NCBI GenBank assembly: GCA_030840105.1
Contig: JAUZGC010000109.1
Location: forward strand, 1-35,922
DNA length: 35,922 nt
Direction: 5' to 3'
DNA from: Microbacteriaceae bacterium
Lineage (GTDB): Bacteria > Actinomycetota > Actinomycetes > Actinomycetales > Microbacteriaceae
Made by a program: the position numbers and the translations under genes. This document shows, piece after piece, positions 1-34,552 of this stretch (position 1 is its first letter; every line of letters starts with the position of its first letter). The notes under the pieces were generated by a model. It was not told where the DNA came from and made no database searches. It worked only from the letters and a program-made list of their open reading frames with translations.

Positions 1-946
1 GCGAATCATGGATGGCGCGGACTCCGAGCGACCCCGCGACGCTCACCGCGAGCTCGAACTCGTCGTCGCTCGCGTAGTCGCCAGCCGCAAGGCTGAGCGC
101 GACCATGAGGTGGCTGCGCCTGGTCTCATCGTACTGCCGCACCATGTAGCTGCCGGTCTTCGCCGTGCTCTTCCAGTGGATGTTGCGCCGTTCGTCGCCT
201 GGCACATACTCACGCAACGAATGGAAAGCGACGTCGCTTGTCGTGAGGTCCTTGGTCGGGGCACCCTCGAGGTCACGGATGAATCCCGTACTCATGCTCG
301 GGATCGCGATCGTCCTGGGGTGCACGTACAGGTCGAGCGCGCTCGCCCAGACGACCTCGCGTCGCAGAAGCCCAACCGGATCCGCCCGAACCGTGCGCAC
401 CGGCCCGATCGGGATGACCCCGCGCCTCGAGGTCGGCACCAGGAAGACGTCCTGGTAACCGCCGCCACGGGGCAGGCTCGGCATGGCGAACTCCGCAAGG
501 CCCAACCCCACGGGGACCTCGATCCGTACACCAGCCAGACGACGCCTCGTCGGGTTGGCGACGATCACTTCGCCCGGCGCCTTCTCGCCGGCGACGACGC
601 GGTTGGATGGCATCGACAGCCGCACGTCATAGGCGTTGCGCCCGATCAGGTAGAGCATCGCGAGCAGGATGAGCACGAGTCCGGTCCACGCGACAACGAC
701 GGCCTCCGCCCAGCCGACCGCGTAGCCGAGGACGAACGCCGCGATGACCACCGCAGCCGTCGACCAGCCGAGTGGCGTGATGACTGTGCTGATCCATCGC
801 CATCCGGTCCGGATCGAATGCCGAGTCATCCGAACGATGCGCACGATCGCGACGATGGTGTCGGCGAGCACGCCGTCGCGCGTGCCGACGATTCGCGTTC
901 GGGCGTTGGTCAGCTCCGTCTGGGTTCGCGTGACGGTGTTGGTCAC
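1..946 (-). CDS. DUF58 domain-containing protein, C-terminus truncated by window edge
   Basis: Reverse-strand frame read by eye from a GTG at 946: VTNTVTRTQTELTNARTRIV...STAAVVIAAFVLGYAVGWAEAVVVAWTGLVLILLAMLYLIGRNAYDV...SLREYVPGDERRNIHWKSTAKTGSYMVRQYDETRRSHLMV. Two N-terminal TM segments and the DUF58 'YxxGDxxRxIxW' signature. GTGA overlap with the MoxR stop. Absent from the ORF track because it runs off the edge. Confidence 0.85.
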   Translation of the reverse strand, partial: MTNTVTRTQTELTNARTRIVGTRDGVLADTIVAIVRIVRMTRHSIRTGWRWISTVITPLGWSTAAVVIAAFVLGYAVGWAEAVVVAWTGLVLILLAMLYLIGRNAYDVRLSMPSNRVVAGEKAPGEVIVANPTRRRLAGVRIEVPVGLGLAEFAMPSLPRGGGYQDVFLVPTSRRGVIPIGPVRTVRADPVGLLRREVVWASALDLYVHPRTIAIPSMSTGFIRDLEGAPTKDLTTSDVAFHSLREYVPGDERRNIHWKSTAKTGSYMVRQYDETRRSHLMVALSLAAGDYASDDEFELAVSVAGSLGVRAIHDS

Positions 947-1935
947 ACGGCTTGCCGATCCGACGGGGGCGGGGTCTCGATCAGGATCTGGGCGATCACG
1001 CTCGACGCCGTCACGCCGTCGAACTCCGCCTCCGGCTCGAGAAGGAGCCGATGCGCGAGGACCGGCTCGGCGAGTGCCTTGATGTCATCCGGGATCACGT
1101 AGTGCCTGCCGCTCGCCGCGGCGAGGGTCTTCGCCGTGCGCACGAGGGCGAGCGCACCGCGCACACTCACACCGAGGCGCACCTCGGTCGCGGTCCGCGT
1201 CGCGTCCACGAGCCGGGAGACGTAGTCGTTGATGGTCGGGTCGACGTGCACCGTGCGAGCCACCGAGCCCATCCGCACGATGGTGGACGCGGGAACGACC
1301 TCGGGCACAACGATGTCGTGTGCCTTGCGGTCTGCGCCTTCGAGGATGCGGATCGTGGCCTCGTGGTCCGGGTAGCCGATGGATGCCTTCATGATGAAGC
1401 GGTCCAGCTGCGCCTCTGGCAGGCGGTACGTTCCCGCCTGCTCGATCGGGTTCTGCGTGGCGATGACCATGAACGGGGCAACCACGGGATGCGTGACGCC
1501 GTCGACGGTCACCTGGCCCTCTTCCATGACCTCGAGGAGCGCGGATTGCGTCTTGGGGCTCGCCCGGTTGATCTCGTCGGCGAGCACCACGTTGGCAAAG
1601 ATCGGTCCCCGGTGGAATTCGAAGGTGCCCGTGCGCTGGTCATAGATGTTGACGCCCGTGATGTCGCCAGGCAGCAGATCGGGAGTGAACTGGACCCGAT
1701 TGCTCACGCCGCGTACGCTCTGCGCGATGGCGCGAGCGAGTGAGGTCTTGCCGGTGCCGGGAAAATCCTCGAGCAGCAGGTGACCCTCGCTGAACAGCGC
1801 GGTGAGCGACAACCGGATGATGTGGGACTTGCCGAGCACCACTTGCTCGATGTTAGCCACCAGGCGATCGAAAACACTGGCGAAGGAGGTCGCCTGCTCC
1901 CTGGTCATGGTTGTCATGTCGGCGGTCTCGATCAT
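943..1935 (-). CDS. MoxR family AAA+ ATPase
   Basis: Walker A EDFPGTGKTSLARA, Walker B VVLADEINRASPKTQSALLEVMEE, sensor VIATQNPIEQAGTYRLPEAQLDRF. Start set at ATG 1935 because GGGAGG lies just upstream; the ORF extends to 2049 and ATG 1959 is an alternative. Confidence 0.93.
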   Translation of the reverse strand: MIETADMTTMTREQATSFASVFDRLVANIEQVVLGKSHIIRLSLTALFSEGHLLLEDFPGTGKTSLARAIAQSVRGVSNRVQFTPDLLPGDITGVNIYDQRTGTFEFHRGPIFANVVLADEINRASPKTQSALLEVMEEGQVTVDGVTHPVVAPFMVIATQNPIEQAGTYRLPEAQLDRFIMKASIGYPDHEATIRILEGADRKAHDIVVPEVVPASTIVRMGSVARTVHVDPTINDYVSRLVDATRTATEVRLGVSVRGALALVRTAKTLAAASGRHYVIPDDIKALAEPVLAHRLLLEPEAEFDGVTASSVIAQILIETPPPSDRQAV

Positions 1936-1999
1936 GCCCTGGCCTCCCTCGACGATCATCGGCTGCACTGCGCTGTCATTCAGTATGACGGTCGATGGC

Positions 2000-4900
2000 T
2001 CATCCAAGGTCGCTGCTCCGATAGTCGTGGGTGTACAGGGTCCCGCCATTGGCGATGACGGTCACCGTGAGGGTTCCGCTCAGCTGGCCGGTTGCCAGCG
2101 TGCAGGTCCCCGTCTGGCCGGGCGCGGGCATATCCCGCTGCGTTACGCCGCCGTCACAGCTGTATTTAACCGCAGAGTACGTGCCGGTCGGCCAGCCCGT
2201 CCAGCTGAACTGGCCGGTCGTCGCATCCGCTGGGCTCGGTCCGAAGCGTGCGCCACTCAGCACCGTACTGACGGGCACCCCTGGACTCTTGGCCGAGGAC
2301 CAATCACTGCGCAGGACGACGCCACCCGGATAGGTGGCCACGGTGCGCAGCTGCACGGATGCCGCCTGCCCATAGCTCTGGGACCCACCCGCCAGGACCC
2401 CGCCCGCGGGAACCGGCAGGGGGGCCGTCGTAAACGCCCCGACGAATTGGTATTCGTAGCTCAGGGCGGCACCTCCTGGGTTCGCCGGTGGAGTCATGCT
2501 CGTCAACACCGCGTCGAAATAACCCGTGTCGCTGCTTCCGCCCGGCACACTCGCCGCAAAGCCTGCTGGTGGATCCGGCCGCGAACGCGGCGTCGCGGTC
2601 GCCACGGCGCTGGCCGTGCAGCCCTGGCCGTTGTACGCATAGACCAGGAAGTTGTAGTTCGTGTTGGCGCTCAAGCCGGTGAATGTGACACTCGTCGTCC
2701 CGCCTGACACTTTGATGAAGTGGCTGTTCTGCGAATCCACCGAAAGCGTCGGGTTGCCGTTTTCGACACCCGTGACGGCGCACGACGGAGCCGATCCCCC
2801 CTGGTAGACCGCCGCGTAGTACGACGTGATGGATTTGCCATTGTCGGTGAAGATTCCGGGCCAGCTGAGCGTCGCGCTCTGGCCGGAGTCGAGGTCGGGC
2901 ACCGCGGACGGCGCTGATGCGCTGGCGATGGGAGGGCCGGAGGGGATGCCCGTGCCTCTCACCTGATTCCACAGCGTCCGCCCGCCATAGAAGTCGTTTC
3001 GTGATGCAACCGAGAACGGGACACTCCCGCCGTTGCCGATGCTGGCATCCGTGAGATTCACTGAATACGGTGTGCCGACGGCGTCGCTGCCTGGCACCGT
3101 GACCGACCGCGAAATGCCGCCGACATTCACGAGATACGAGGTGATCGGGCTCGCTCCCGGTGCGTCAGCCGGCTTCGTCCACGTGACGCGAAGACCGGTG
3201 TCCAGCGGTGTTGCATTCAGGGCCGCCGGTGCAGCAGGCATGATGTTCGACCACGCGGCATCCGTGTAGCTCACCGGATCGGACACGCCCAGAGCGTTAC
3301 GCGCTGTGACCGCGATGTGCACTGCGTTGTCCGGGCCATTGCCGGGCGTCTGCACAGTGCAGGTCGTCGTCTGGCACGATGTCGTTCCCACGATCTGCCC
3401 GTTGTCCGCGCGCGTCACGGTCAGCTCGAATCCCGTGATCGTCGAGTTGTTGAACGAGCCGGGGATCCAGCTCAGTGTGAGCGCGTGGTCGGAGATCCCG
3501 GCGATCTGCACGTTGGTGACCGGTGCAGGGCGATCCTGCACCGAGATCCGCACGGTGCCCCAGGCGTTCCGATCCGGGTCGCCCGTCGCGTCGACGACCT
3601 CATACTGCAGGTTCGTGTCCGCCGCCGCAGCGCCCGCTGCCACCGTGACGGAGAGCTTGCTGTTGTCGGCGTTCGGCGTGATCGATACTCCGGCGGGCAG
3701 ATTCGCGTTGTCGAGTCCGCGCACCGCGACCACGCGCAGCGGCACGTCGGGGAACGGGTTTGTCGCTCCGTCGTTGGCGAGCACGTCGACAACCGTCGTC
3801 GTCCCGCGCGGCGCGATGGCCACATCCGGCTGGGGGTTGGCGACGGGGCGTGTCGATGGGACCACGTTGAGGTCGATCCGTCCGGCCTGTCCCGGGTTGA
3901 CCGCATCCTTCACCCCGATCGAGATCGACGGATGCGCGCCCTTGGCCGTCTTCTCGCTCACCGCGATGGTGAGCTTCTGTCCGGACAGGCTCAGGCTGAC
4001 CCCCGACGGCTGCTCGCCCTGCACCGTATACGTGAGCTCGCTCTGGTCCTTCGCGTACGGGTAACTCGTGAGCTTGACCAGGTCGATGGTCTTCTGCTGG
4101 CCTGGCTCAAAGTCGATGAGCGCCCCGGTGAACACGGGCGGCTGGTTCGCGCGCGCCGTGACCGTGATCGGCAGCACGATCGTGGCGACGCGCCCCTGCG
4201 GATCCGTCGCCGACGTGCCGTCGGTGACCTGGAATGCGATGGATGCCGTTCCGAAATACCGCGCGGCGCTCGTGAACTCGAGCGTGTCACCGTTGACGAC
4301 CAGGTTGGCCCCGTTGGAGTGCGTAGCGCGCACCGTGGACGCGTCGGTGAGCCGCACCTGCTTACCGCCGACAGCGACGACGTAGTCGTTCAGGTGGATC
4401 CTTACGGCGCTCTCGCTCGTCACGGTCAACCGCGGCACGCCGCGCTTGAGCTGGGGGAGCGCATCGTCGTAGCCGGGCACGCGAATGAATGCGAATGAGG
4501 AGATGTTCGGGTCGCCGGGGTGGGCGACCTCGAAGGGGATGATCTGGCTCGTCGCTCCGATCGTGACCCGCACACGCTTGTTCGCGGTCACCTGCGCCCT
4601 GTCGGAGTATCCAGGGAGCACGGACAGCGCCAGTGAGGAGACGGGCCCATCGGGGAAGAAGACGTTCGCGAGAACGTTGACGTCGACGGTCTGCTTGCCG
4701 AGGATGTCGGAGAGCCCGAGCACGGTGTCGCGAGTGATGGGCCGCGCGAGCGGCGCATCCTTACTCACGGCCACGCGGATAAAGCTTTCACTCGACCCGC
4801 CCCTGGCGTTCTGGATCGTGTACAGAAAGCTATAGACGCCCTCCTTGGCCGGCGCCGTCACCGTCACGATGCTGCCCTTGCGTACGGCCTTGGCATTGCC

Positions 4901-7900
4901 GTCGAGCGGCACGACCCCGGTCACGCTCAGCGCGCTTCCGTCGGGGTCGGAGTCGTTGGCGAGCACCTGCACCGACACCGACTTGCCTGGGCGCACCGTC
5001 ACGTCATCCTCGACCGCGACGGGGTTTCGGGCGCCGTCGCTTCGACTCGCAATGCCCACCCTGACCGTTCCGATCGCGCGCGCGCCGAGGGCATCGATCA
5101 CCGCATAGGTGAAGGTATCGGTGCCCGCCGAGTATTCACCGGCCTGGTAATCCATCCAGTCGCTGCCAACTGCAAGGACCGCGCCCTTGCTCGGGTTGGT
5201 CTCCTGGCCGAGCAACTGCACCGAATCGCCGTCCGGGTCGACGCCGGTCAGCGGGATCGGGATGCGCACCGTGTCGCCTGCGAGGACGCGGGCCGTGACG
5301 GTCGTCGGGACCGGCGGGTTGTTGGTGGCTGCGTCGAGTTCGCGGACGGAGATCGTCACAGCGGCCGTTGCCCACTGCCCGTCCGCTCCCGTGACCCGGT
5401 AGACGGCAGTGAAGTTGCCCGGCTTGGACGGCGCGAGGTAACGCAACACGTCACCCGAGGCGAAGAGGAGGCCGGCACCGCTCGGGAGCGGGGTGGCGAG
5501 CGTCGGGTCGAGTGTGAGCGTCTCGCCATCCGGCTGCTGGTCGTTGGCTAGGACCGGAATGTCCGTCGTGTCGCCCACACGAACCGAGATGGTATCCGGA
5601 TTCGCGACGGGCGGTTGGTGCACGGTCAGGGCCGGCAGCTGGACGACCGTGACCGTCCCTTCTGTCTCCGCGAGGCCATTGCTGATCCGGTAGTGAAAGT
5701 CGACGGGTGCGTCGAGCGGCCGGTTGAGCGTCACGCGCAGGACCCTCTGCCCGAGGATCTCGACTCGGATGCCGCTCGATGCTGGCGGCTGCGTGACCCC
5801 GGTGATCAGCAACACTCCCCCAGACGGGTCGACGTCGGTTGCGAGCACGTCGACCTGCTGGGTCGTCTGCTCGCGGATGAAGGCGGTGTGCGGCACGGCA
5901 ATGGGCTGCGTCTTCGCCTCGGGCGGTGCCTGCACGTCGATGCGCACCGTACCCGTCGTCGTGAGCGTCCCATCCGTCACCGCGTAATCGATGTTGTGCG
6001 TGCCGACCTGGTCACTCAAGAACCGGAAGGAGCCACCCTGGTAGTCGGCCGAAATCGTCGCATCGGGCTTCGCCGGCACGTTTCCGAGCCGGAGCGTGCC
6101 GGTGCCGCCGCGGGCATGCGTGAGCGGCGTGACGGTCACTTCGTGGCCCTGGTATGCCAGCACGACGAATGGCTCGGTGATGATCGGCACACTTCCCGGT
6201 GGTTGTACCGTCACGGCGAGCGAACCGGTGCCCTGTGCGCGCGAATCGGAAACCACGAGGGCGACGTCCTTGAGGGTGCCGCCCGCTCCCTTGTCGGAAT
6301 ACGCAACGGCGCCTTGCGGCGTGAAGCTGACCGCATCCGGTGTCGCCACGGTTGCACTTGCCAGGTAGAACGGGTCGCCGTCCGGGTCGTACCAGTCGCC
6401 GAGCACCTGGGTCGTGACGCGTCCGCCTGCCTGCACGATCGCCTTGGTCGCGCGCGCCTGCACCGGCGGTGAATTCTCGGTGGGCAACCGTACCGTCACG
6501 GTGACCTTCGCCGTCGCGCTGCCGCCGTGTCCATCCGTGATCGTGTAGCTGAAACTCACCGTGCCGCTCGCCGAGTCCGGAAGCGTGATCTGCAGCTGCT
6601 GGTTGTTGTTCACCAGGTCGACCCGCCCGGCCGACGCGGGAATTCCCTCAAACGAGTCGACGACGAGCACGTCACCGTTCGGGTCGTAGTCGTTCAAAAG
6701 CACGGGTAGCGTCGTCACGCGACCTGGGCGCGCTCCGAACTGGTCATCGACGGCAACGGGCGGCAGCTGACTCTTCTCATACTGGGGTGGCGTGTCCTGC
6801 TTGTTCAGTGCGACCTGCTGCAGGTTGGTCTTCTTGGTGACCAGCTCGTCCCAGTTGTTGATGGACGCGTTCCCGCGCTGCACGGCCCAGGTTGCCCCCG
6901 ACTTCACGTCGTTCGCCACCACGCGCTCGCCGTTGGCCCGCAGCGCCAGCTCTGCCCCGCTCGGCACGCCGGCAAGCGTGCCACGGTGGCCCGCGGATGC
7001 TCCCCCGCAGGTGCTCCAGGTCGTTCCTCCCGCCCACGCGGCGTACACGCAGCCGTGCACGAGTGCGGGGGCAGCGGCCCGGCCGAGGTTTTCGGTGAGG
7101 ATCCTCCTGGGGGTCCCCCCGGCGATGGGTACGCCGATCAGGCCCGTCGACGAGGCGATGTAGACGGTGTCACCTGTGGTGCTCGGCTGCTCCAGGACGG
7201 GGTTGGCCGCACCGGCCAGCTCGCTCGAGAGGTCGACGGCCCCACTCGGCAGATACAACATCTTCGCGTCTGGATCGAGCAGCGCCCACTGCCCGGCGAT
7301 CGAGGTCATGCTGTCGTTCGTGCCTTTTCCGGTCGCGCCGACCGTGACCGAGGTGCTGACGCCTCCGCCGGTGGTCGCGTCGATTCGGTGCACGACGCCG
7401 GTGTCGGGAAGAAACGTGAAAAGGGTCCCGTCGGGGGCCAGGCTGGTGACCGCACGTCCGCCGAGGTCGATCGTCGGACCTGAGCTCGCATCGAAGGTGG
7501 GCAGCTGGGCAAAGGGCATCAGCCAGACCTGGCCGGTCACGGCCGATGAGATGGCCACGCGATCACCGGCGAGCTGGACACTCGGCTGACGAGCCGGCAG
7601 GGGCACGCTCTTGCCCGCCTCTCCCGTCGCGGGGTCGACCACGCCGACGGTGTTGTTGCCGAGGTCGACCATGATGACGTTGCTGCCGGACTGGACGACG
7701 TCCAGGGCCGGGCCGGCCGAGGGTACGACCGAATTGAGCTGGAGGATCTCGGTATTCGCACGTCCGAGAAGCTGTCTGGTCTGGCTGGTCACCCATACCG
7801 CCGCGTCGCCCAGGTTCATCTGCTGGGCGGTGTATCCGCCCGAAACAATCGCGACGGTCGTCACGAGCGCAACGATGACGGAGCCGCTCGTCGCCGTGGC

Positions 7901-7939
7901 GACGAGCGACTTATGAGAGGCGAGCCACTGCCGGATCAT
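2000..7939 (-). CDS. Giant (~1979 aa) single-TM anchored extracellular protein with tandem Ig/cadherin-like repeats and C-terminal fibronectin type III domains
   Basis: N-terminal TM (SGSVIVALVTTVAIVSGGYTA) after a ~20-aa tail; at least seven modules with 'PVAxxDxxxVxxGxxxxxxVLANDxDPDGDxLxV'-type motifs; FN3-like modules near the C-terminus (PAPVTNVQIAGISDHALTLSWIPGS..., PAAPAALNATPLDTGLRVTWTKPAD...). Start at ATG 7939 overlaps the kinase stop (ATGA). Confidence 0.9.
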   Translation of the reverse strand: MIRQWLASHKSLVATATSGSVIVALVTTVAIVSGGYTAQQMNLGDAAVWVTSQTRQLLGRANTEILQLNSVVPSAGPALDVVQSGSNVIMVDLGNNTVGVVDPATGEAGKSVPLPARQPSVQLAGDRVAISSAVTGQVWLMPFAQLPTFDASSGPTIDLGGRAVTSLAPDGTLFTFLPDTGVVHRIDATTGGGVSTSVTVGATGKGTNDSMTSIAGQWALLDPDAKMLYLPSGAVDLSSELAGAANPVLEQPSTTGDTVYIASSTGLIGVPIAGGTPRRILTENLGRAAAPALVHGCVYAAWAGGTTWSTCGGASAGHRGTLAGVPSGAELALRANGERVVANDVKSGATWAVQRGNASINNWDELVTKKTNLQQVALNKQDTPPQYEKSQLPPVAVDDQFGARPGRVTTLPVLLNDYDPNGDVLVVDSFEGIPASAGRVDLVNNNQQLQITLPDSASGTVSFSYTITDGHGGSATAKVTVTVRLPTENSPPVQARATKAIVQAGGRVTTQVLGDWYDPDGDPFYLASATVATPDAVSFTPQGAVAYSDKGAGGTLKDVALVVSDSRAQGTGSLAVTVQPPGSVPIITEPFVVLAYQGHEVTVTPLTHARGGTGTLRLGNVPAKPDATISADYQGGSFRFLSDQVGTHNIDYAVTDGTLTTTGTVRIDVQAPPEAKTQPIAVPHTAFIREQTTQQVDVLATDVDPSGGVLLITGVTQPPASSGIRVEILGQRVLRVTLNRPLDAPVDFHYRISNGLAETEGTVTVVQLPALTVHQPPVANPDTISVRVGDTTDIPVLANDQQPDGETLTLDPTLATPLPSGAGLLFASGDVLRYLAPSKPGNFTAVYRVTGADGQWATAAVTISVRELDAATNNPPVPTTVTARVLAGDTVRIPIPLTGVDPDGDSVQLLGQETNPSKGAVLAVGSDWMDYQAGEYSAGTDTFTYAVIDALGARAIGTVRVGIASRSDGARNPVAVEDDVTVRPGKSVSVQVLANDSDPDGSALSVTGVVPLDGNAKAVRKGSIVTVTAPAKEGVYSFLYTIQNARGGSSESFIRVAVSKDAPLARPITRDTVLGLSDILGKQTVDVNVLANVFFPDGPVSSLALSVLPGYSDRAQVTANKRVRVTIGATSQIIPFEVAHPGDPNISSFAFIRVPGYDDALPQLKRGVPRLTVTSESAVRIHLNDYVVAVGGKQVRLTDASTVRATHSNGANLVVNGDTLEFTSAARYFGTASIAFQVTDGTSATDPQGRVATIVLPITVTARANQPPVFTGALIDFEPGQQKTIDLVKLTSYPYAKDQSELTYTVQGEQPSGVSLSLSGQKLTIAVSEKTAKGAHPSISIGVKDAVNPGQAGRIDLNVVPSTRPVANPQPDVAIAPRGTTTVVDVLANDGATNPFPDVPLRVVAVRGLDNANLPAGVSITPNADNSKLSVTVAAGAAAADTNLQYEVVDATGDPDRNAWGTVRISVQDRPAPVTNVQIAGISDHALTLSWIPGSFNNSTITGFELTVTRADNGQIVGTTSCQTTTCTVQTPGNGPDNAVHIAVTARNALGVSDPVSYTDAAWSNIMPAAPAALNATPLDTGLRVTWTKPADAPGASPITSYLVNVGGISRSVTVPGSDAVGTPYSVNLTDASIGNGGSVPFSVASRNDFYGGRTLWNQVRGTGIPSGPPIASASAPSAVPDLDSGQSATLSWPGIFTDNGKSITSYYAAVYQGGSAPSCAVTGVENGNPTLSVDSQNSHFIKVSGGTTSVTFTGLSANTNYNFLVYAYNGQGCTASAVATATPRSRPDPPAGFAASVPGGSSDTGYFDAVLTSMTPPANPGGAALSYEYQFVGAFTTAPLPVPAGGVLAGGSQSYGQAASVQLRTVATYPGGVVLRSDWSSAKSPGVPVSTVLSGARFGPSPADATTGQFSWTGWPTGTYSAVKYSCDGGVTQRDMPAPGQTGTCTLATGQLSGTLTVTVIANGGTLYTHDYRSSDLG

Positions 7940-9363
7940 GTCCCGTTCGCCGAGTCGACACACTTCGGACTGCTGGGCTGCCCGGTCTTGCCATCTCGAT
8001 TGACGGTCACCGTGATGCACACGCTGCCCCCCGTGTTCACGTCGACGCGGAACTCGGTGCTGCGCTGGATGCTGGGCGGCGCGGTTCCCACACTCACTTG
8101 GTACGCATCCTGGGCCTGCAGGCCCGGGTCGTTCCAGGAGAAGATGACGGTGCCGTTGTCGAGCCGGCCCGAGACGTCGCGCACGGTGGGAATGTCACCG
8201 TTCGCGGCAACCCGCACGAGCACAAAGGCCGCCGTCGCACCGAGCAGCACGACGAGCACCGAGCATGCGACGAGCGACCAGACGAGCGCCCTGGTCCATC
8301 GACCCTGCGTATCCGGCTCCCTGCTCGCGCCGCTTCCCGCACTCTCGCGCGGGAGCGTTCCCGGCGGTGTGCGCGTCACGATGGCGGATGCCGGCAGCTT
8401 CCGTTTTCGCCGGCGTCCGGCCGGGTCGACACTCACCACGCCCCCGATGCGCGTGCGATCGTCCGGGTCTGACGCCGTCGCGAGCGCCCACTCGTCCATC
8501 GCGACTTCCATCGACGTCTGGGCGAGGCCGAGTTCCGTCTCGACGGACTGCAGCTCGCGGATGAGTTCCAGCACGCTGTGCTGTCGCGCTTCGGGCTTCT
8601 TCGACATGGCGCGGGCGAGAATGACCTCCAGCCGGTGCGGCAGGTCTTCGCGCCCGATCGGCTGCGGCTTCGACTTCGTGATCCTCTGGATCAGGTCGGC
8701 CGACGTGTTGTCTTTACCTGGGACCTCGAACGGCGATCGCCCGGCCAGCAGGGAGTAGATGGATGCACCCAGCGCCCAGATCTCGCTCGCGACAGTGCCC
8801 GACGTCTCATCGAGGAGGACCTCCGGTGCGGACCACGGAATCGACAGCCCAATCGGCTCGCTCGACTCCGCTTCGCTCAGGGTCGCTGCAATGCCGAAAT
8901 CGCTCAGCACGGGATGTCCGTACGCCGTGGTGAGGATGTTCGATGGCTTGATGTCCCGGTGCAGGACACCCGACCGGTGCGCCGTCTCGACAGCGCTCGC
9001 GATCTTGATCCCGATGCTCAAAACCTCTGGCACGGCAATCGGCTGCTCCCGGTACCGCAGGCCAATCGCAGCGGAGCACAGTTCCATGACCAGGTACGGA
9101 CGCCCATCGGACGACACCCCCGCCTGGTAGACGGTGAGGATGGAGGGATGCGTACTGAGCTGAGCCATGAGGTTGGCCTCGGCCTGGAACATATGGCGCA
9201 CCTGGCTCGTGACGACCTCTGCCAGCATGACCTTGACCGCGACCTGTCGTCGAGGAAGATTCTGCTCGTACAGGAAGACATCGGCAAAACCGCCGGATCC
9301 GAGGATCCGAACATAGGAGAAACCGGGAAGGTTCGGGGGTTGAGACGGCAAGCGTCTGGCCAT
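7936..9363 (-). CDS. Transmembrane Ser/Thr protein kinase with FN3-like extracellular domain
   Basis: Kinase motifs GSGGFADVFLYEQ, VAVKVM, HRDIKPSNIL, SDFGIA, SAPEVLL; TM segment RALVWSLVACSVLVVLLGATAAFVLV; extracellular tail DVSGRLDNGTVIFSWNDPGLQAQDAYQVSVG... resembles FN3. Start at internal Met (9363) just before ARRLPSQPPNLPGFSYVRILGSG. Confidence 0.92.
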   Translation of the reverse strand: MARRLPSQPPNLPGFSYVRILGSGGFADVFLYEQNLPRRQVAVKVMLAEVVTSQVRHMFQAEANLMAQLSTHPSILTVYQAGVSSDGRPYLVMELCSAAIGLRYREQPIAVPEVLSIGIKIASAVETAHRSGVLHRDIKPSNILTTAYGHPVLSDFGIAATLSEAESSEPIGLSIPWSAPEVLLDETSGTVASEIWALGASIYSLLAGRSPFEVPGKDNTSADLIQRITKSKPQPIGREDLPHRLEVILARAMSKKPEARQHSVLELIRELQSVETELGLAQTSMEVAMDEWALATASDPDDRTRIGGVVSVDPAGRRRKRKLPASAIVTRTPPGTLPRESAGSGASREPDTQGRWTRALVWSLVACSVLVVLLGATAAFVLVRVAANGDIPTVRDVSGRLDNGTVIFSWNDPGLQAQDAYQVSVGTAPPSIQRSTEFRVDVNTGGSVCITVTVNRDGKTGQPSSPKCVDSANGT

Positions 9364-9536
9364 ATCGCCTCCCGCACGCTCGCTCGAACAGTTTCGTCCA
9401 CCCACTGCCTGCCGGTTTCGGGCGAACGGCAGACGTTCCTCATTCTAGGCAGCCCATCGCGTTTCACGGCCGGTCGCACCCCGACTGGAGGCTCCGATCG
9501 CACCCCCAACTCGGGGGTCGCAGAATCGCTACCGAA

Positions 9537-10373
9537 TCAGTGTCGGCGCAGGCTGCGGCGCGATCCGCTCTCGCTGTGCGAACCGCTCTCCGGCGTGTCG
9601 AGGACGTCGACCACGACGACGGTCACGTTGTCGCGACCCCCATTGCCGAGTGCCGCATCCATGAGCTGCTGTGCCGCGTCGAGCGGCGAACTGCCGTCTC
9701 CGAGGAAATGCGCGATGCCGTGCTCGGTCAGCTCCTTCGTGAGTCCGTCCGAGCACACGAGCAAGCGTGCGCCCGCGACGATCGGGATGAGCCAGTAGTC
9801 GGGAACCGGGTCTTCATTGAAGCCGACCGCGCGCGTAATCACGTTGCTGTGCGGATGCACTTCGGCCTCGGCCGGAGTGATGGCGCCGGCATCCAACAGC
9901 TCCTGCACGATCGAATGATCGGTCGTGAGCTGCTGCAGTTCGCCGTCCGCGAATTGGTAGACCCTCGAGTCCCCGATGTTGAAGATGAGCCATCGCGCAA
10001 TGCCATCGACGAGCGCGAGCGCGATCCCCGTGACGGTCGTGCCCGTCCCCAGATCGGTCTGGCCGACGCCGCGGCTCATGTCATCGACGGCCGCGCGCAG
10101 TGCGCCGTTGATCGCGTCTTCCTCGACGAAGTCGACCGATACCTGTTCCGCGAGTCGCGTGACGACAGCTGCGCTCGCGAAGTCGCCTGCGGTGTGCCCG
10201 CCCATGCCGTCCGCTACGGCGAAGATGGGAGACTTCGCGAGGAGGCTGTCCTCATTGACCGCGCGGCGATAGCCCTTGTCACTGAGCGCCGCCCACGAGA
10301 GGCTCACGCGCGCGCCTCCGCCACCTGGCACGGCCACGTTGTGGCGTCTGTTGCTGCGACCGATCTGGGTCAC
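9537..10373 (-). CDS. PP2C-family Ser/Thr protein phosphatase
   Basis: Motifs DKGYRRAVNEDS, VADGMGGHTAGDFAS, FNIGDSRVYQF, LLVCSDGLTKEL, GGRDNVTVVVVDV. Confidence 0.94.
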   Translation of the reverse strand: MTQIGRSNRRHNVAVPGGGGARVSLSWAALSDKGYRRAVNEDSLLAKSPIFAVADGMGGHTAGDFASAAVVTRLAEQVSVDFVEEDAINGALRAAVDDMSRGVGQTDLGTGTTVTGIALALVDGIARWLIFNIGDSRVYQFADGELQQLTTDHSIVQELLDAGAITPAEAEVHPHSNVITRAVGFNEDPVPDYWLIPIVAGARLLVCSDGLTKELTEHGIAHFLGDGSSPLDAAQQLMDAALGNGGRDNVTVVVVDVLDTPESGSHSESGSRRSLRRH

Positions 10374-11467
10374 TCGGATCCTCTCCCGGTCGAATCGACG
10401 ATCATGTATCCCCCGGCAGGAATGATCTCGATGATATTACCGTCACCAATGTCAACCGTCGTACCAGGGAGGACCACACGCGACTCACCTGGTCGCATGC
10501 GCAAGCGGTCGATACCCGGACTGGTCACGAACGTGCCGTTCGTCGAGCGCAGGTCGGTGACGACAACCGCGTCGCCCACCTGCTGGAGTTGCACATGGGT
10601 CGAGGACACCACCTGAGTCGGTGACTCGACCGTGACGAGCAGCGGCGAGGCGCCCAGTGCGATGCGCGGCGGCGCCGGCTCGCGCCCGACGAATGCCGGC
10701 GCATCAAGCGAGCGCGGTTCGCCGCCGCCAACCCGGAACGTGATGAGGTCCTCCACCGGCATGGGCCGCTGTGGCGGGCGACTGCGCAGGATCGTGTCGT
10801 CGTCGAATTCGGACTCGAGATCGGGGGTGTGCGCCGATCCGGCCCGTGGGACGGGCGCGTACCGCGACCGGATGATGGTCTCGTCCGGGTCAGCGGCGGC
10901 GCTCACGTTGTCGCTCGAAGCCGCACCGGCAGCAGGATCCATGTCCTCGATCGGCGCGAGAGACCAGGCAAGCAATTCGCCCTCAACGACCCCGATGGCA
11001 AGTGGGAGGCCACCGGCGGCACGCCGCGGAACCTCGCCGGTCGGGTGGTCGCCTCCGCCGAGGACGACACCCGTCACCGAGCGGAAGTCGGCCAACACCC
11101 ACGGCTCGACACCCCCCGCAGAGAACCTTCTGGAACCCCCTACCGAGAAGATGTCGACGTTGGCAGCGCCACGAACGACGGCGGTGGCCGTTGTGTCGCT
11201 GGATGCGGCCTCGATCGCGGCCAGGCTCACCGCCGCGAACGACCGCACTGCATGCTCACCCGTCAGCGGGAACGCACCAACGATCGACTCGATCGGAGCA
11301 TGATCGGATTGGGCAAGCCGCCACAGGGCGTCCAGGACCGGCTTCACGACGTCGGCACTCACCGCGGCGACGAAGGAACGCCCGGCGACGAAGAGCCAGC
11401 GCGGGTTGGCCGAGGCCGGTGCGTACCGGGTATAGCCGGGGACCACTCGCGATTCCCCCAACCTCAC
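10370..11467 (-). CDS. FHA domain-containing protein
   Basis: C-terminal FHA-like segment SPTQVVSSTHVQLQQVGDAVVVTDLRSTNGTFVTSPG...LPGTTVDIGDGNIIEI. Uncharacterised N-terminal half. GTG start; 4-bp ATGA overlap with the PP2C gene. Confidence 0.87.
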   Translation of the reverse strand: MRLGESRVVPGYTRYAPASANPRWLFVAGRSFVAAVSADVVKPVLDALWRLAQSDHAPIESIVGAFPLTGEHAVRSFAAVSLAAIEAASSDTTATAVVRGAANVDIFSVGGSRRFSAGGVEPWVLADFRSVTGVVLGGGDHPTGEVPRRAAGGLPLAIGVVEGELLAWSLAPIEDMDPAAGAASSDNVSAAADPDETIIRSRYAPVPRAGSAHTPDLESEFDDDTILRSRPPQRPMPVEDLITFRVGGGEPRSLDAPAFVGREPAPPRIALGASPLLVTVESPTQVVSSTHVQLQQVGDAVVVTDLRSTNGTFVTSPGIDRLRMRPGESRVVLPGTTVDIGDGNIIEIIPAGGYMIVDSTGRGSE

Positions 11468-13481: not shown

Positions 13482-14950
13482 CTATGCCCACTACGAGCAC
13501 GCCGAGCGGAACGACCACGGGCAGCACGACGACAACGGGCGGCACGACCACGCTGCCTGCGACATCCGCGACCGGTTTCGACAATGCGGACCTGCAGCAG
13601 AAGGCCAAGGACCACCTCTGGATGCATTTCGCGCGCCAGTCGACCCTCGAGGACGGCCACGGCGTCCCCATCATCACCAGGGGCCAGGGGCACCACATCT
13701 GGGACTCGAACGGGCGCAAATACATCGACGGGCTCTCCGGCCTCTTCGTCGTGAACGCCGGCCACGGGCGCAAGCGCCTGGCCGAGGTTGCCGCCAAGCA
13801 GGCAGAGGAGCTCGCCTTCTTCCCGATCTGGTCGTACGCGCACCCGAACGCCATCGAGCTGGCCGACCGGCTCGCGAGCTACGCACCAGGCGACCTCAAC
13901 CGGGTCTTCTTCTCGACGGGCGGAGGCGAGGCCGTCGAGACGGCGTTCAAGCTGGCCAAGTACTTCTGGAAGCTGCAGGGCCGGCCGACGAAGCACAAAG
14001 TGATTTCGCGCGCCGTCGCATACCACGGCACCCCGCAGGGTGCGCTCGCGATCACGGGCATCCCCGCCATGAAGGAAATGTTCGAGCCGGTGACGCCCGG
14101 CGGTTTCCGCGTGCCGAACACGAACTTCTATCGCGCGGAGGAGATGGGCTTCTCCGGCGACCTCGATGCCTTCGGCCAATGGGCGGCCAACCGCATCGAA
14201 GAGATGATCATCTTTGAGGGCCCGGAGACCGTGGCTGCGATCTTCCTCGAACCGGTCCAGAACAGTGGCGGATGCTTCCCCCCTCCCCCCGGATACTTCC
14301 AGAGGGTGCGCGAAATCTGCGACAAGTACGACGTGCTGCTGGTCGCAGACGAGGTGATCACGGGCTTCGGGCGCATCGGCAACTGGTTCGCATCCACGAC
14401 GTACGGATTCCAGCCGGACATGATCACGTGCGCCAAAGGCATGACGAGCGGATACTCCCCCATCGGCGCGACCATCATCAGTGACCGGATCTACGAGCCG
14501 TTCAAGCACGGGAACACGTCCTTCTACCACGGTTACACGTTCGGCGGCCATCCGGTCTCCGCTGCTGTCGCCCTGGCCAACCTCGACATCTTCGAGGAGG
14601 AGAAGCTCAACGAACGCGTGCGCGAGAATTCGCCGCTGTTCCGCGCCGAACTCGAGACGCTTCTCGACCTTCCCATCGTCGGTGACGTGCGCGGCGACGG
14701 CTATTTCTTCGGCATCGAACTCGTCAAGGACAAGGCGACCAAGGAAACCTTCGACGACGACGAGTCGGAGCGCCTGCTACGGGGGTTCCTCTCCAAGGCA
14801 CTCTTCGACGCGGGCCTCTACTGCCGCGCAGACGACAGAGGCGACCCCGTCGTGCAGCTCGCTCCCCCGCTGACGACCGGACCCGCCGAATTCGCCGAGA
14901 TCGGCCAGATCCTGCGCGGTGTGCTGTCAGAAGCATGGACTCGGCTCTGA
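13478..14950 (+). CDS. Class III PLP-dependent aminotransferase (putrescine/diamine/omega-amino acid type)
   Basis: DGLSGLFVVNAGHGRKRLAEVAAKQ, FSTGGGEAVETAFKLAKYFWK, LLVADEVITGFGRIGNWF, MITCAKGMTSGYSPIGA. ATGA overlap with the Lrp gene. Unusual Thr/Gly/Ser-rich N-terminus. Confidence 0.93.
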   Translation: MTMPTTSTPSGTTTGSTTTTGGTTTLPATSATGFDNADLQQKAKDHLWMHFARQSTLEDGHGVPIITRGQGHHIWDSNGRKYIDGLSGLFVVNAGHGRKRLAEVAAKQAEELAFFPIWSYAHPNAIELADRLASYAPGDLNRVFFSTGGGEAVETAFKLAKYFWKLQGRPTKHKVISRAVAYHGTPQGALAITGIPAMKEMFEPVTPGGFRVPNTNFYRAEEMGFSGDLDAFGQWAANRIEEMIIFEGPETVAAIFLEPVQNSGGCFPPPPGYFQRVREICDKYDVLLVADEVITGFGRIGNWFASTTYGFQPDMITCAKGMTSGYSPIGATIISDRIYEPFKHGNTSFYHGYTFGGHPVSAAVALANLDIFEEEKLNERVRENSPLFRAELETLLDLPIVGDVRGDGYFFGIELVKDKATKETFDDDESERLLRGFLSKALFDAGLYCRADDRGDPVVQLAPPLTTGPAEFAEIGQILRGVLSEAWTRL

Positions 14951-16410
14951 GCAGCGAGGCAGCGTTGAGCAGCGAGGCAGCGTTGAGCAGCGAGGCAGCG
15001 TCGAGCCGCATGACAGTACCCGACTACCGCAACGTCAGCTTCTGGCTCGACTCGCTGGCGGCGTCCGGCGTCGATGACCTGACGCCACGCGCTGCACTCG
15101 CTTCGGATGTCTCCGTCGACGTGTGCATCGTGGGTGGAGGACTCACCGGCCTCTGGACCGCGTACTACCTCAAGAAGGCGAACCCGTCGCTCGACATCGC
15201 CGTCCTCGAGAAGAACATCGCCGGTTTCGGCGCATCCGGTCGCAACGGTGGCTGGTGTTCGACCCTGTTCCCGCTCTCGGCATCGGCGCTCGAGGCTCGT
15301 TACGGCTTCGAGTCGGCCGTCGCGATGCGCAAGGCGATGAACGACACCGTCGATGAGGTCGGCCGCGCGACCCTGGCAGAAGGAATCGACTGCGATTTCG
15401 TCAAGGGCGGCACTGTCACGTTCGTGCGCACACGCGCCCAGCTCGCCGGCGCACGCAGCGAGGTCGCCGAGGCGCTTCTCTTTGATGTGGACAGGGTCAG
15501 CCTGTGGGGGGCGGACACGGTTGGCGCGAGGTTTCCCGGAGCGGCCGCACGGGCGGCGACCTTCACGCCGGACTGTGCGAGCGTCCAGCCGGCCAAGCTC
15601 GTACGCGGGCTGGCCAGGGTGGTCGAGTCGCTCGGCGTCGCCATCTCCGAGCGGACCGCGGTGACTGGTTGGACCGCAGGTGAGGTGCGCGTCGTAACCG
15701 CGGGCGGGCCGCGCACCGTCCGCGCGACCACCGTGGTCAACGCAACCGAGGGCTACGGATCCACGCTTCCGCAGGTCGGGCGTGCGGTCATCCCCCTCTA
15801 CTCGCTCATGATCGCAACCGAACCGCTGCCGGAGGAAACCTGGCAACGCATCGGGCTCGAGCACGGCCAGACGTTCAGCGACTTCCGCCACCTCCTGGTC
15901 TACGGGCAGCGAACAGCCGACAACAGGATCGCGTTCGGCGGCCGCGGCGCGCGCTATCACTGGGGCAGCGCCATCCGCCCGTCCTACGATCGAGTCGCCC
16001 GGGTGACTCACCACCTGCACAAGGCGCTCCTCGGCCTCTTCCCCGACGTCGGCTCTGCTCGGATCACGCACGAATGGGGCGGGCCGCTCGGCGTCACGCG
16101 CGACTGGCACGCGAGCGTCGGTTACGACAAAGCGAGCGGAATGGCCTGGGCCGGCGGCTATGTCGGCGACGGCCTGAGCACGACGAACCTGGCCGGGCGC
16201 ACGCTCGCCGACCTCATCATGGACAGGGAAACCGAGCTGACCCGGCTGCCGTGGGTCAATCACCGCTCCCCGCGCTGGGAGCCGGAACCGCTGCGGTTCC
16301 TCGGCGCCAATGGCGGCCTCCTCGGCATGGAATTCGCGGATGTCGAGGAGCAGGTCACGCGCCGAAGTTCGCTCACGGCCCGTCTGATCGCGCCACTCGT
16401 CGGGCGTTAG
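14935..16410 (+). CDS. FAD-dependent oxidoreductase (DAO family, PuuB/gamma-glutamylputrescine oxidase-like)
   Basis: Dinucleotide-binding motif VDVCIVGGGLTGLWTAYYLKKANPSLDIAVLEKNIAGFGASGRNGGW. Start ambiguous: ATG 14935 (reads through the 18-bp repeat) or ATG 15010 (MTVPDYRNVSFWLDSL). Confidence 0.88.
   Translation: MDSALSSEAALSSEAALSSEAASSRMTVPDYRNVSFWLDSLAASGVDDLTPRAALASDVSVDVCIVGGGLTGLWTAYYLKKANPSLDIAVLEKNIAGFGASGRNGGWCSTLFPLSASALEARYGFESAVAMRKAMNDTVDEVGRATLAEGIDCDFVKGGTVTFVRTRAQLAGARSEVAEALLFDVDRVSLWGADTVGARFPGAAARAATFTPDCASVQPAKLVRGLARVVESLGVAISERTAVTGWTAGEVRVVTAGGPRTVRATTVVNATEGYGSTLPQVGRAVIPLYSLMIATEPLPEETWQRIGLEHGQTFSDFRHLLVYGQRTADNRIAFGGRGARYHWGSAIRPSYDRVARVTHHLHKALLGLFPDVGSARITHEWGGPLGVTRDWHASVGYDKASGMAWAGGYVGDGLSTTNLAGRTLADLIMDRETELTRLPWVNHRSPRWEPEPLRFLGANGGLLGMEFADVEEQVTRRSSLTARLIAPLVGR
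14948..15001. repeat. Three perfect tandem copies of an 18-bp unit (TGAGCAGCGAGGCAGCGT)
   Basis: Read directly: units at 14948-14965, 14966-14983, 14984-15001. The first unit begins with the aminotransferase stop codon. Confidence 0.97.
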
Positions 16411-33888: not shown

Positions 33889-34496
33889 TGCTCTTCATCT
33901 TCGACATGGACAACGTGCTCTACGAGTACAACTGGCGGGTGCGCATGGCCGCCATGACCGAGCACACCGGACTGGAGCTCGCGCAGTTGCGCGAACGCTG
34001 GTGGAACGACGATGGCGAATGGGCAGCGGAGGCCGGCCGCTTCACCACGGCCGATGAATACCTCGCCGCGCTCCGGCAGGCGCTCGGCGTACCCGTGGAC
34101 GAAGATGCCTGGGTGAAGGCACGTAGAGGGGCGATGACGCCCTGGGCGGACTCGATCAGCGCGGTCGGGCGAGCGGCCGAGCTCGGAACCGTCACGCTCC
34201 TGACCAACAATGGCGCCCTGACCGCCAAGCACCTTCGAACCCTCGCCCCTGAGCTCGTCCCGCACTTCGGCGACCACCTCTTCACGTCGTCGGACTACGG
34301 CGCCCGCAAGCCCGATCCCATCGTCTTTGAGCGCGTGCTCACGCGCTATCAGACGGATGCCGCCGACGCCTTCTTCGCTGACGATCTTGCGGAGAACGTC
34401 GCAGGGGCCAGGTCGGTGGGAATCGCGGCTCACCTGTTCAGCACGTCCGCCGAACTCCTTGCGGCAATCGAGGCGTTCGCCGCGGCTCGCGTGTAG
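33888..34496 (+). CDS. HAD superfamily hydrolase, paralog 2
   Basis: Motif I FIFDMDNVLYEYN; TLLTNN; GARKPDPIVFERVL; AFFADDLAENVAGARSVGIAAHLF. TGATG overlap with paralog 1; extensive similarity to it. Confidence 0.9.
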   Translation: MLFIFDMDNVLYEYNWRVRMAAMTEHTGLELAQLRERWWNDDGEWAAEAGRFTTADEYLAALRQALGVPVDEDAWVKARRGAMTPWADSISAVGRAAELGTVTLLTNNGALTAKHLRTLAPELVPHFGDHLFTSSDYGARKPDPIVFERVLTRYQTDAADAFFADDLAENVAGARSVGIAAHLFSTSAELLAAIEAFAAARV

Positions 34497-34540
34497 CTTG
34501 CGTGGCTCGCGTGTAGCCTGCGTGGCTCGCGTGTAGCCTG
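34481..34540. repeat. Three tandem copies of a 20-bp unit (CGTGGCTCGCGTGTAGCCTG) spanning the stop codon of the second HAD gene
   Basis: 34481-34500 (two mismatches), 34501-34520 and 34521-34540 (identical to each other); TAG stop at 34494-34496 is inside the first unit. Confidence 0.97.
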
Positions 34541-34552
34541 CGCCGCCCCCGG

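Follow-up and report, generated by a model that had tools for sequence, protein, structure and literature searches.

How a surface protein some 2,000 residues long is attached to an actinobacterial cell, and what it is for, are the questions raised by the giant gene in the window, by which we mean the whole stretch of DNA analysed: 35,922 nucleotides, the entire contig JAUZGC010000109.1 (C259) of a 2.74-Mb Microbacteriaceae assembly in 294 contigs. The product is a genuine surface protein, built of a propeller base and a rod of bead-like modules (Table 1). By its architecture and by its gene set, it is the fn3-type gene product of a PFNA-type operon, a point missed by the sequence-only reading that preceded this analysis.

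Table 1. Features of the giant protein and its operon in the window
Feature	Position	Strand	Basis
Giant surface protein (PFNA FN3-type), 1,979 aa	2000..7939	-	ORF, Pfam, relatives
Basic cytoplasmic N-tail, residues 1-12 (MIRQWLASHKSL)	7904..7939	-	R/K and W columns conserved; S8, S11 not
Single transmembrane helix, ~residues 13-35, probable signal anchor	7835..7903	-	Hydropathy; cleavage sites tested
Conserved post-helix motif, residues 36-50 (YTAQQMNLGDAAVWV; family consensus TTEVDLNDGGVWVT)	7790..7834	-	Alignments A1 to A3
Predicted β-propeller domain, residues 37 to ~366, invariant C297 and C311	6842..7831	-	AF2, Foldseek, alignment
Shaft, eleven Ig/cadherin-like modules D1-D11, residues 392-1469	3533..6766	-	Pfam Big_9/Cadherin; collinear in relatives
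Three FN3-type modules, residues 1470-1789	2573..3532	-	Pfam fn3, model
Variable tip, two β modules, residues 1790-1979	2003..2572	-	Lowest conservation; model
Ser/Thr kinase, one transmembrane segment, FN3-like ectodomain; second possible start ATG 9363	7936..9405	-	Pkinase 3e-38; ectodomain in relatives
PP2C phosphatase	9537..10373	-	PP2C_2 7e-13
FHA-domain protein	10370..11467	-	FHA 6e-7
MoxR-type AAA+ ATPase; ORF overlaps giant gene 3' end	943..2049	-	AAA_3 6e-62
DUF58 protein, truncated by contig end, continued on contig C222	2..946	-	DUF58 5e-9

Overall layout of the giant protein

The start codon of the giant gene (ATG at 7939) overlaps the stop codon of the kinase gene (ACATGATCC). The GC contents at the three codon positions are 0.64, 0.53 and 0.84, which is the pattern expected for a coding frame in this genome. 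The Pfam models Big_9 (1e-69; nine stretches), Cadherin_5 (6e-26) and fn3 (2e-19; three stretches) matched the protein with E-values that place these domains far beyond chance, and Cadherin_4 matched too; the Ig/cadherin-like and FN3 modules proposed earlier were thus confirmed. The literal motif VLANDxDPDGD, by which modules had been described, is absent, whereas degenerate forms (DYDPNGD, WYDPDGD, DVDPSGG, DQQPDGE, GVDPDGD and DSDPDGS) are present; DPDGD lies in modules D2 and D6. The short N-terminal tail, the single transmembrane helix and the unique region of about 350 residues were recognized again in the sequence.

In addition, the AlphaFold2 (AF2) model of residues 1066-1979 was a chain of β-sandwich modules that continues to the C-terminus (...GGTLYTHDYRSSDLG), as the earlier assignment of FN3-like/Ig modules to this end had it. 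The pLDDT was 82.2; the pTM of 0.39 is what is expected of beads on a string. The Foldseek matches of this chain were contactins, receptor phosphatases and gp130, a likeness to Ig/FN3 chains of a generic kind. The protein has eight cysteines, all past the helix and in four close pairs (297/311, 1522/1527, 1720/1774 and 1928/1946), and the paired residues might form disulfides.

N-terminal domain and membrane attachment

The suggestion that the N-terminal region is propeller-like gained support from structure prediction. The AF2 model of residues 37-395, based on 61 sequences, was nearly all β, with a pLDDT of 81.5 and a pTM of 0.81. In the Foldseek comparison of this model with the PDB, the best E-value was 8e-9, and the 50 matches listed were all below 1e-6 and nearly all propellers; the leading ones were an archaeal YVTN propeller/PKD S-layer protein, BamB and Vgb lyase. 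The TM-scores were modest (0.33-0.57), with no settled blade number. A Pfam scan and a PDB sequence search with the N-domain gave nothing convincing, weak propeller-type Pfam matches being seen in relatives only. The model supports a β-propeller fold for this domain. The best PDB match, the archaeal surface-layer protein (1l0q), shares with the giant a propeller joined to Ig-like modules; however, the identity in the structural alignment was 12%, the TM-score was just 0.43 and the two have no operon in common. As modelled, the resemblance is one of fold, not of kinship. It should be mentioned that no part of the N-domain is better conserved than the post-helix motif, yet the model confidence of this motif is low.

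The hydropathy of the helix is 1.9 in the window protein, and the mean of 96 relatives is 2.0. Among these relatives, basic residues are kept ahead of the helix and acidic ones past it, and an invariant glycine directly past the helix is followed by the conserved motif. This charge pattern agrees with the N-in/C-out orientation claimed before, with the basic tail inside, one helix and the modules outside, as in type II membrane proteins. The Ser/Thr residues of the tail had also been considered as targets of the adjacent kinase. The columns of S8 and S11 contain Ser or Thr in just 15% and 9% of the relatives, so that these phosphosites are unsupported; the well conserved Ser/Thr column of the N-terminus falls within the helix in the alignment of the 96 relatives.

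Cleavage of the helix was assessed by a residue-pattern test alone. Sites resembling those of signal peptidase are rare between the helix end and the propeller in the 96 relatives, and none is common, which favours the uncleaved type II anchor of the earlier reading; against it, a small-x-A pattern within the helix fits 89% of the relatives (TVA in the window protein). If the helix were a cleaved signal peptide, the giant would be released or would stay in the wall, either non-covalently, for example through its propeller or tip, or cross-linked by the transglutaminase. The in-helix pattern and the transglutaminase in the operon are consistent with this explanation, and passages of PMC10688814 give a signal peptide besides a transmembrane segment for the FN3 protein of B. 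longum. However, the small-x-A site lies within the hydrophobic stretch, the invariant glycine and the conserved motif stand directly past the helix, and no other anchor is visible in the giant. Cleavage seems the less likely of the two, though it keeps appreciable weight; the helix probably stays in place as the membrane anchor.

The absence of a sorting signal was found throughout the family: an LPXTG-like motif occurs in the last 100 residues of 0/112 full-length members, the window protein included. A second hydrophobic segment is absent from the window protein, whose best later 19-residue stretch scores 1.35; this accords with the lack of a C-terminal transmembrane segment stated earlier. 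The sortase LPXTG surface-protein class, defined by a C-terminal LPXTG, a hydrophobic segment and a basic tail, was set aside, since the first two are missing. An internal LPDTG at residues 177-181 sits inside the propeller and cannot serve as a sorting signal there.

The operon and its distribution

The genes are arranged on one strand in the order FHA, PP2C, kinase, giant, MoxR, DUF58 and transglutaminase. The window end overlaps the start of C222 by exactly 127 nt, and on C222 the DUF58 gene goes on and is followed by one for a TgpA-type transglutaminase; the five core PFNA genes, from the kinase to the transglutaminase, are thus present in one direction, the last via this overlap. In passages of the PFNA literature, the operon of Bifidobacterium is given as pkb2-fn3-aaa-atp-duf58-tgm, with prpC and fha. 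The genes and their core order are the same, whereas FHA and PP2C are upstream in the window and downstream in Bifidobacterium. The window giant is close in length to the Bifidobacterium FN3 protein (1,992 residues), and both have an N-terminal transmembrane segment. The FN3 modules, which precede the C-terminal region, begin at about residue 1470 in the former and occupy residues 1490-1665 in the latter, according to passages of PMC12607495. On the other hand, the host belongs to a Microbacteriaceae-type family, not to Bifidobacterium, and the FN3 modules of the window protein lack a WSxPS-type motif. No description of an N-terminal propeller was found in the PFNA passages.

DUF58 was the most frequent neighbour in the 44 loci, each read up to 20 kb (42 loci), followed by MoxR (41), transglutaminase (40), kinase (35), PP2C (32) and FHA (22). 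Contig ends truncate some of the loci, which partly explains the missing kinase, PP2C and FHA genes. The sensor part of the kinase in the window and in loci L113-L171 is a variable FN3-like module, with cysteines conserved in most loci, and in four loci (L118, L137, L149 and L150) the kinase stops shortly past the transmembrane segment. Assignment to the PASTA kinases (PknB/Stk1) was rejected: the score was 171 bits against a cut-off of 450, there was no PASTA match and the ectodomain is FN3-like.

A MoxR protein and a propeller in one cluster recall the MoxR-vWA-β-propeller conflict (defence) systems, and the MoxR, at 37 bits, indeed exceeds the cut-off of the bpMoxR model, which is 27. However, it is matched far better by AAA_3 (208 bits). 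In the known systems, vWA protein and propeller form one fused chain, whereas here the propeller is in the giant and not in the DUF58 protein, and the gene content is constant, not patchy with exchanged effectors. Membership of the giant in such a ternary system is highly improbable and was set aside because the propeller-vWA fusion is lacking.

Within the order, a family with small genomes (L131, L132, L138 and L147) also has homologous giants, in the gene order kinase-giant-MoxR-DUF58-transglutaminase. In one of these loci (L147:8615-15196), the giant and MoxR are fused in a single open frame, and a fn3-aaa fusion of the same type is reported for B. breve in passages of the PFNA literature. 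The C-terminus of the giant being outside, such a fusion would carry an ATPase of the cytoplasm to the cell exterior; MoxR may be made separately from an internal start (ENTMNPTIDD).

The N-terminal 389 residues of the giant were matched in 92/198 sampled genomes of the order (36/73 genera). In the phylum sample, 21/297 matched; the few outside the class are frames of 2,100-2,300 residues with the same neighbours, and the large-genome same-class families among those listed gave no match to this region. Named relatives were mostly Microbacterium, plus Herbiconiux and Subtercola, a skew caused by the Microbacterium-centred query alignment. Microbacterium-like giants with their customary neighbours also occur on contigs titled Planococcus and Stenotrophomonas (L051 and L081), probably through contamination of those assemblies. 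Orthologs of the PFNA genes are stated not to be found elsewhere (passages of PMC6803598), and the FN3 protein is stated to be confined to Bifidobacterium (passages of PMC10688814). In view of the 92/198 genomes and the conserved loci, these statements fail for the architecture and gene set, the range of which appears from sequence matches to be far wider than published. No such protein from beyond the bifidobacteria turned up in a literature search.

Shaft, tip and proposed mechanism

The full-length family proteins have a mean length of 2,022 residues with an SD of 60 (n=112); the frames of other tandem-95 proteins of the same order range from about 280 to 1,970 residues. For each of the modules D1-D11 of the window protein, 81-100% of 27 relatives have the matching module in the corresponding place; for the last three modules the figure is 19-22%. 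The occupancy of the alignment stays mostly at 0.9-1.0 as far as residue 1570 or so and at 0.8 or more to about 1710, and is lower beyond. Module D6 (window 4973-5269, residues 872-970) is clearly the best conserved of the shaft; partners from the operon may make contact with the giant here and at the post-helix motif. At least two tandem giants occur in 14 loci, with one common downstream MoxR-DUF58 set where the locus reaches that far. Between such copies, the tip is 18-43% identical and the shaft 34-90%, the tip value being the lowest or nearly the lowest in each pair. The best reading of the family is a rod of fixed length with a constant shaft and a variable tip. Bacterial Ig/cadherin-like adhesins match the same models as the shaft modules (Big_9, Cadherin_4/5, tandem-95 repeat); the giant differs from them in its fixed module number, its individually conserved modules, its N-terminal instead of C-terminal attachment and its set operon.

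The reading to which we incline, if only by a little, is as follows. The single helix would insert the giant N-in/C-out and would probably remain as the membrane anchor, with the β-propeller at the membrane or the wall base. The eleven fixed Ig/cadherin-like modules together with the FN3 modules, at about 4 nm per module, would give a shaft of about 60 nm able to cross the cell wall, and the variable tip would touch a ligand on the outside. Folding, assembly or modification of the giant at the membrane is probably the task of MoxR, DUF58 and the TgpA-type transglutaminase. The kinase with its FN3-like ectodomain, PP2C and the FHA protein would control this maturation through reversible phosphorylation, most likely of MoxR. 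The conserved operon, the propeller model, the fixed length, the collinear modules, the tip divergence and the tandem giants support this model. So does the phosphorylation by Pkb2 in B. longum of MoxR, the operon-encoded kinase substrate reported in passages of PMC8430577. The in-helix small-x-A pattern, as a possible cleavage site, speaks against the uncleaved anchor, and the loci in which no kinase, PP2C or FHA gene was seen also count against the model.

Tandem giants with a single MoxR-DUF58 set and differing tips are expected of several clients of a common machine, but are no proof of it. MoxR-DUF58-transglutaminase sets are also present in other bacteria without a giant, which means that the client relation is not exclusive. 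The fixed-length shaft with its variable tip nevertheless offers a concrete client candidate for this machinery, the role of which is poorly understood.

PFNA and its FN3 protein are presented, in the passages of the literature, as an immune-sensing device unique to Bifidobacterium. Passages of PMC8430577 and PMC12607495 report in vitro cytokine binding by fragments of the FN3 proteins from B. longum and B. bifidum, and the variable tip is compatible with ligand recognition. The giant might accordingly be a dedicated host-interaction protein, either an adhesin or a cytokine receptor, as proposed for Bifidobacterium FN3. However, Microbacterium, Herbiconiux and other actinobacteria that are not animal-bound commonly have the giant family and its operon, the window FN3 modules have no motif of the WSxPS/WSxES type, and their likeness to gp130 is only that of generic Ig/FN3 chains. 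This explanation is improbable for the window protein. That the same protein with the same neighbours occurs in many free-living actinobacteria suggests that human immune sensing is not its basic job; the distribution points to a general function in the envelope that is older, and Microbacterium, which is easy to grow, makes it testable. As a doubtful extension of the anchored-rod model, the giant and its operon may represent an unrecognised envelope system found across the Actinomycetales, in which a phosphorylation-gated MoxR-DUF58-transglutaminase machine displays a wall-crossing rod of fixed length, constant shaft and variable tip; the bifidobacterial "cytokine receptor" would then be one specialised descendant of this system.

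Two tandem repeats were seen elsewhere in the window. An 18-nt repeat of 3.3 copies (14948-15006), translated as repeated ALSSEA, lies where a plus-strand FAD-oxidoreductase-like ORF begins; the length of the repeat may be variable, or translation of the ORF may start further downstream. A 20-nt repeat of 3 copies with 97% matches is located at 34484-34542.
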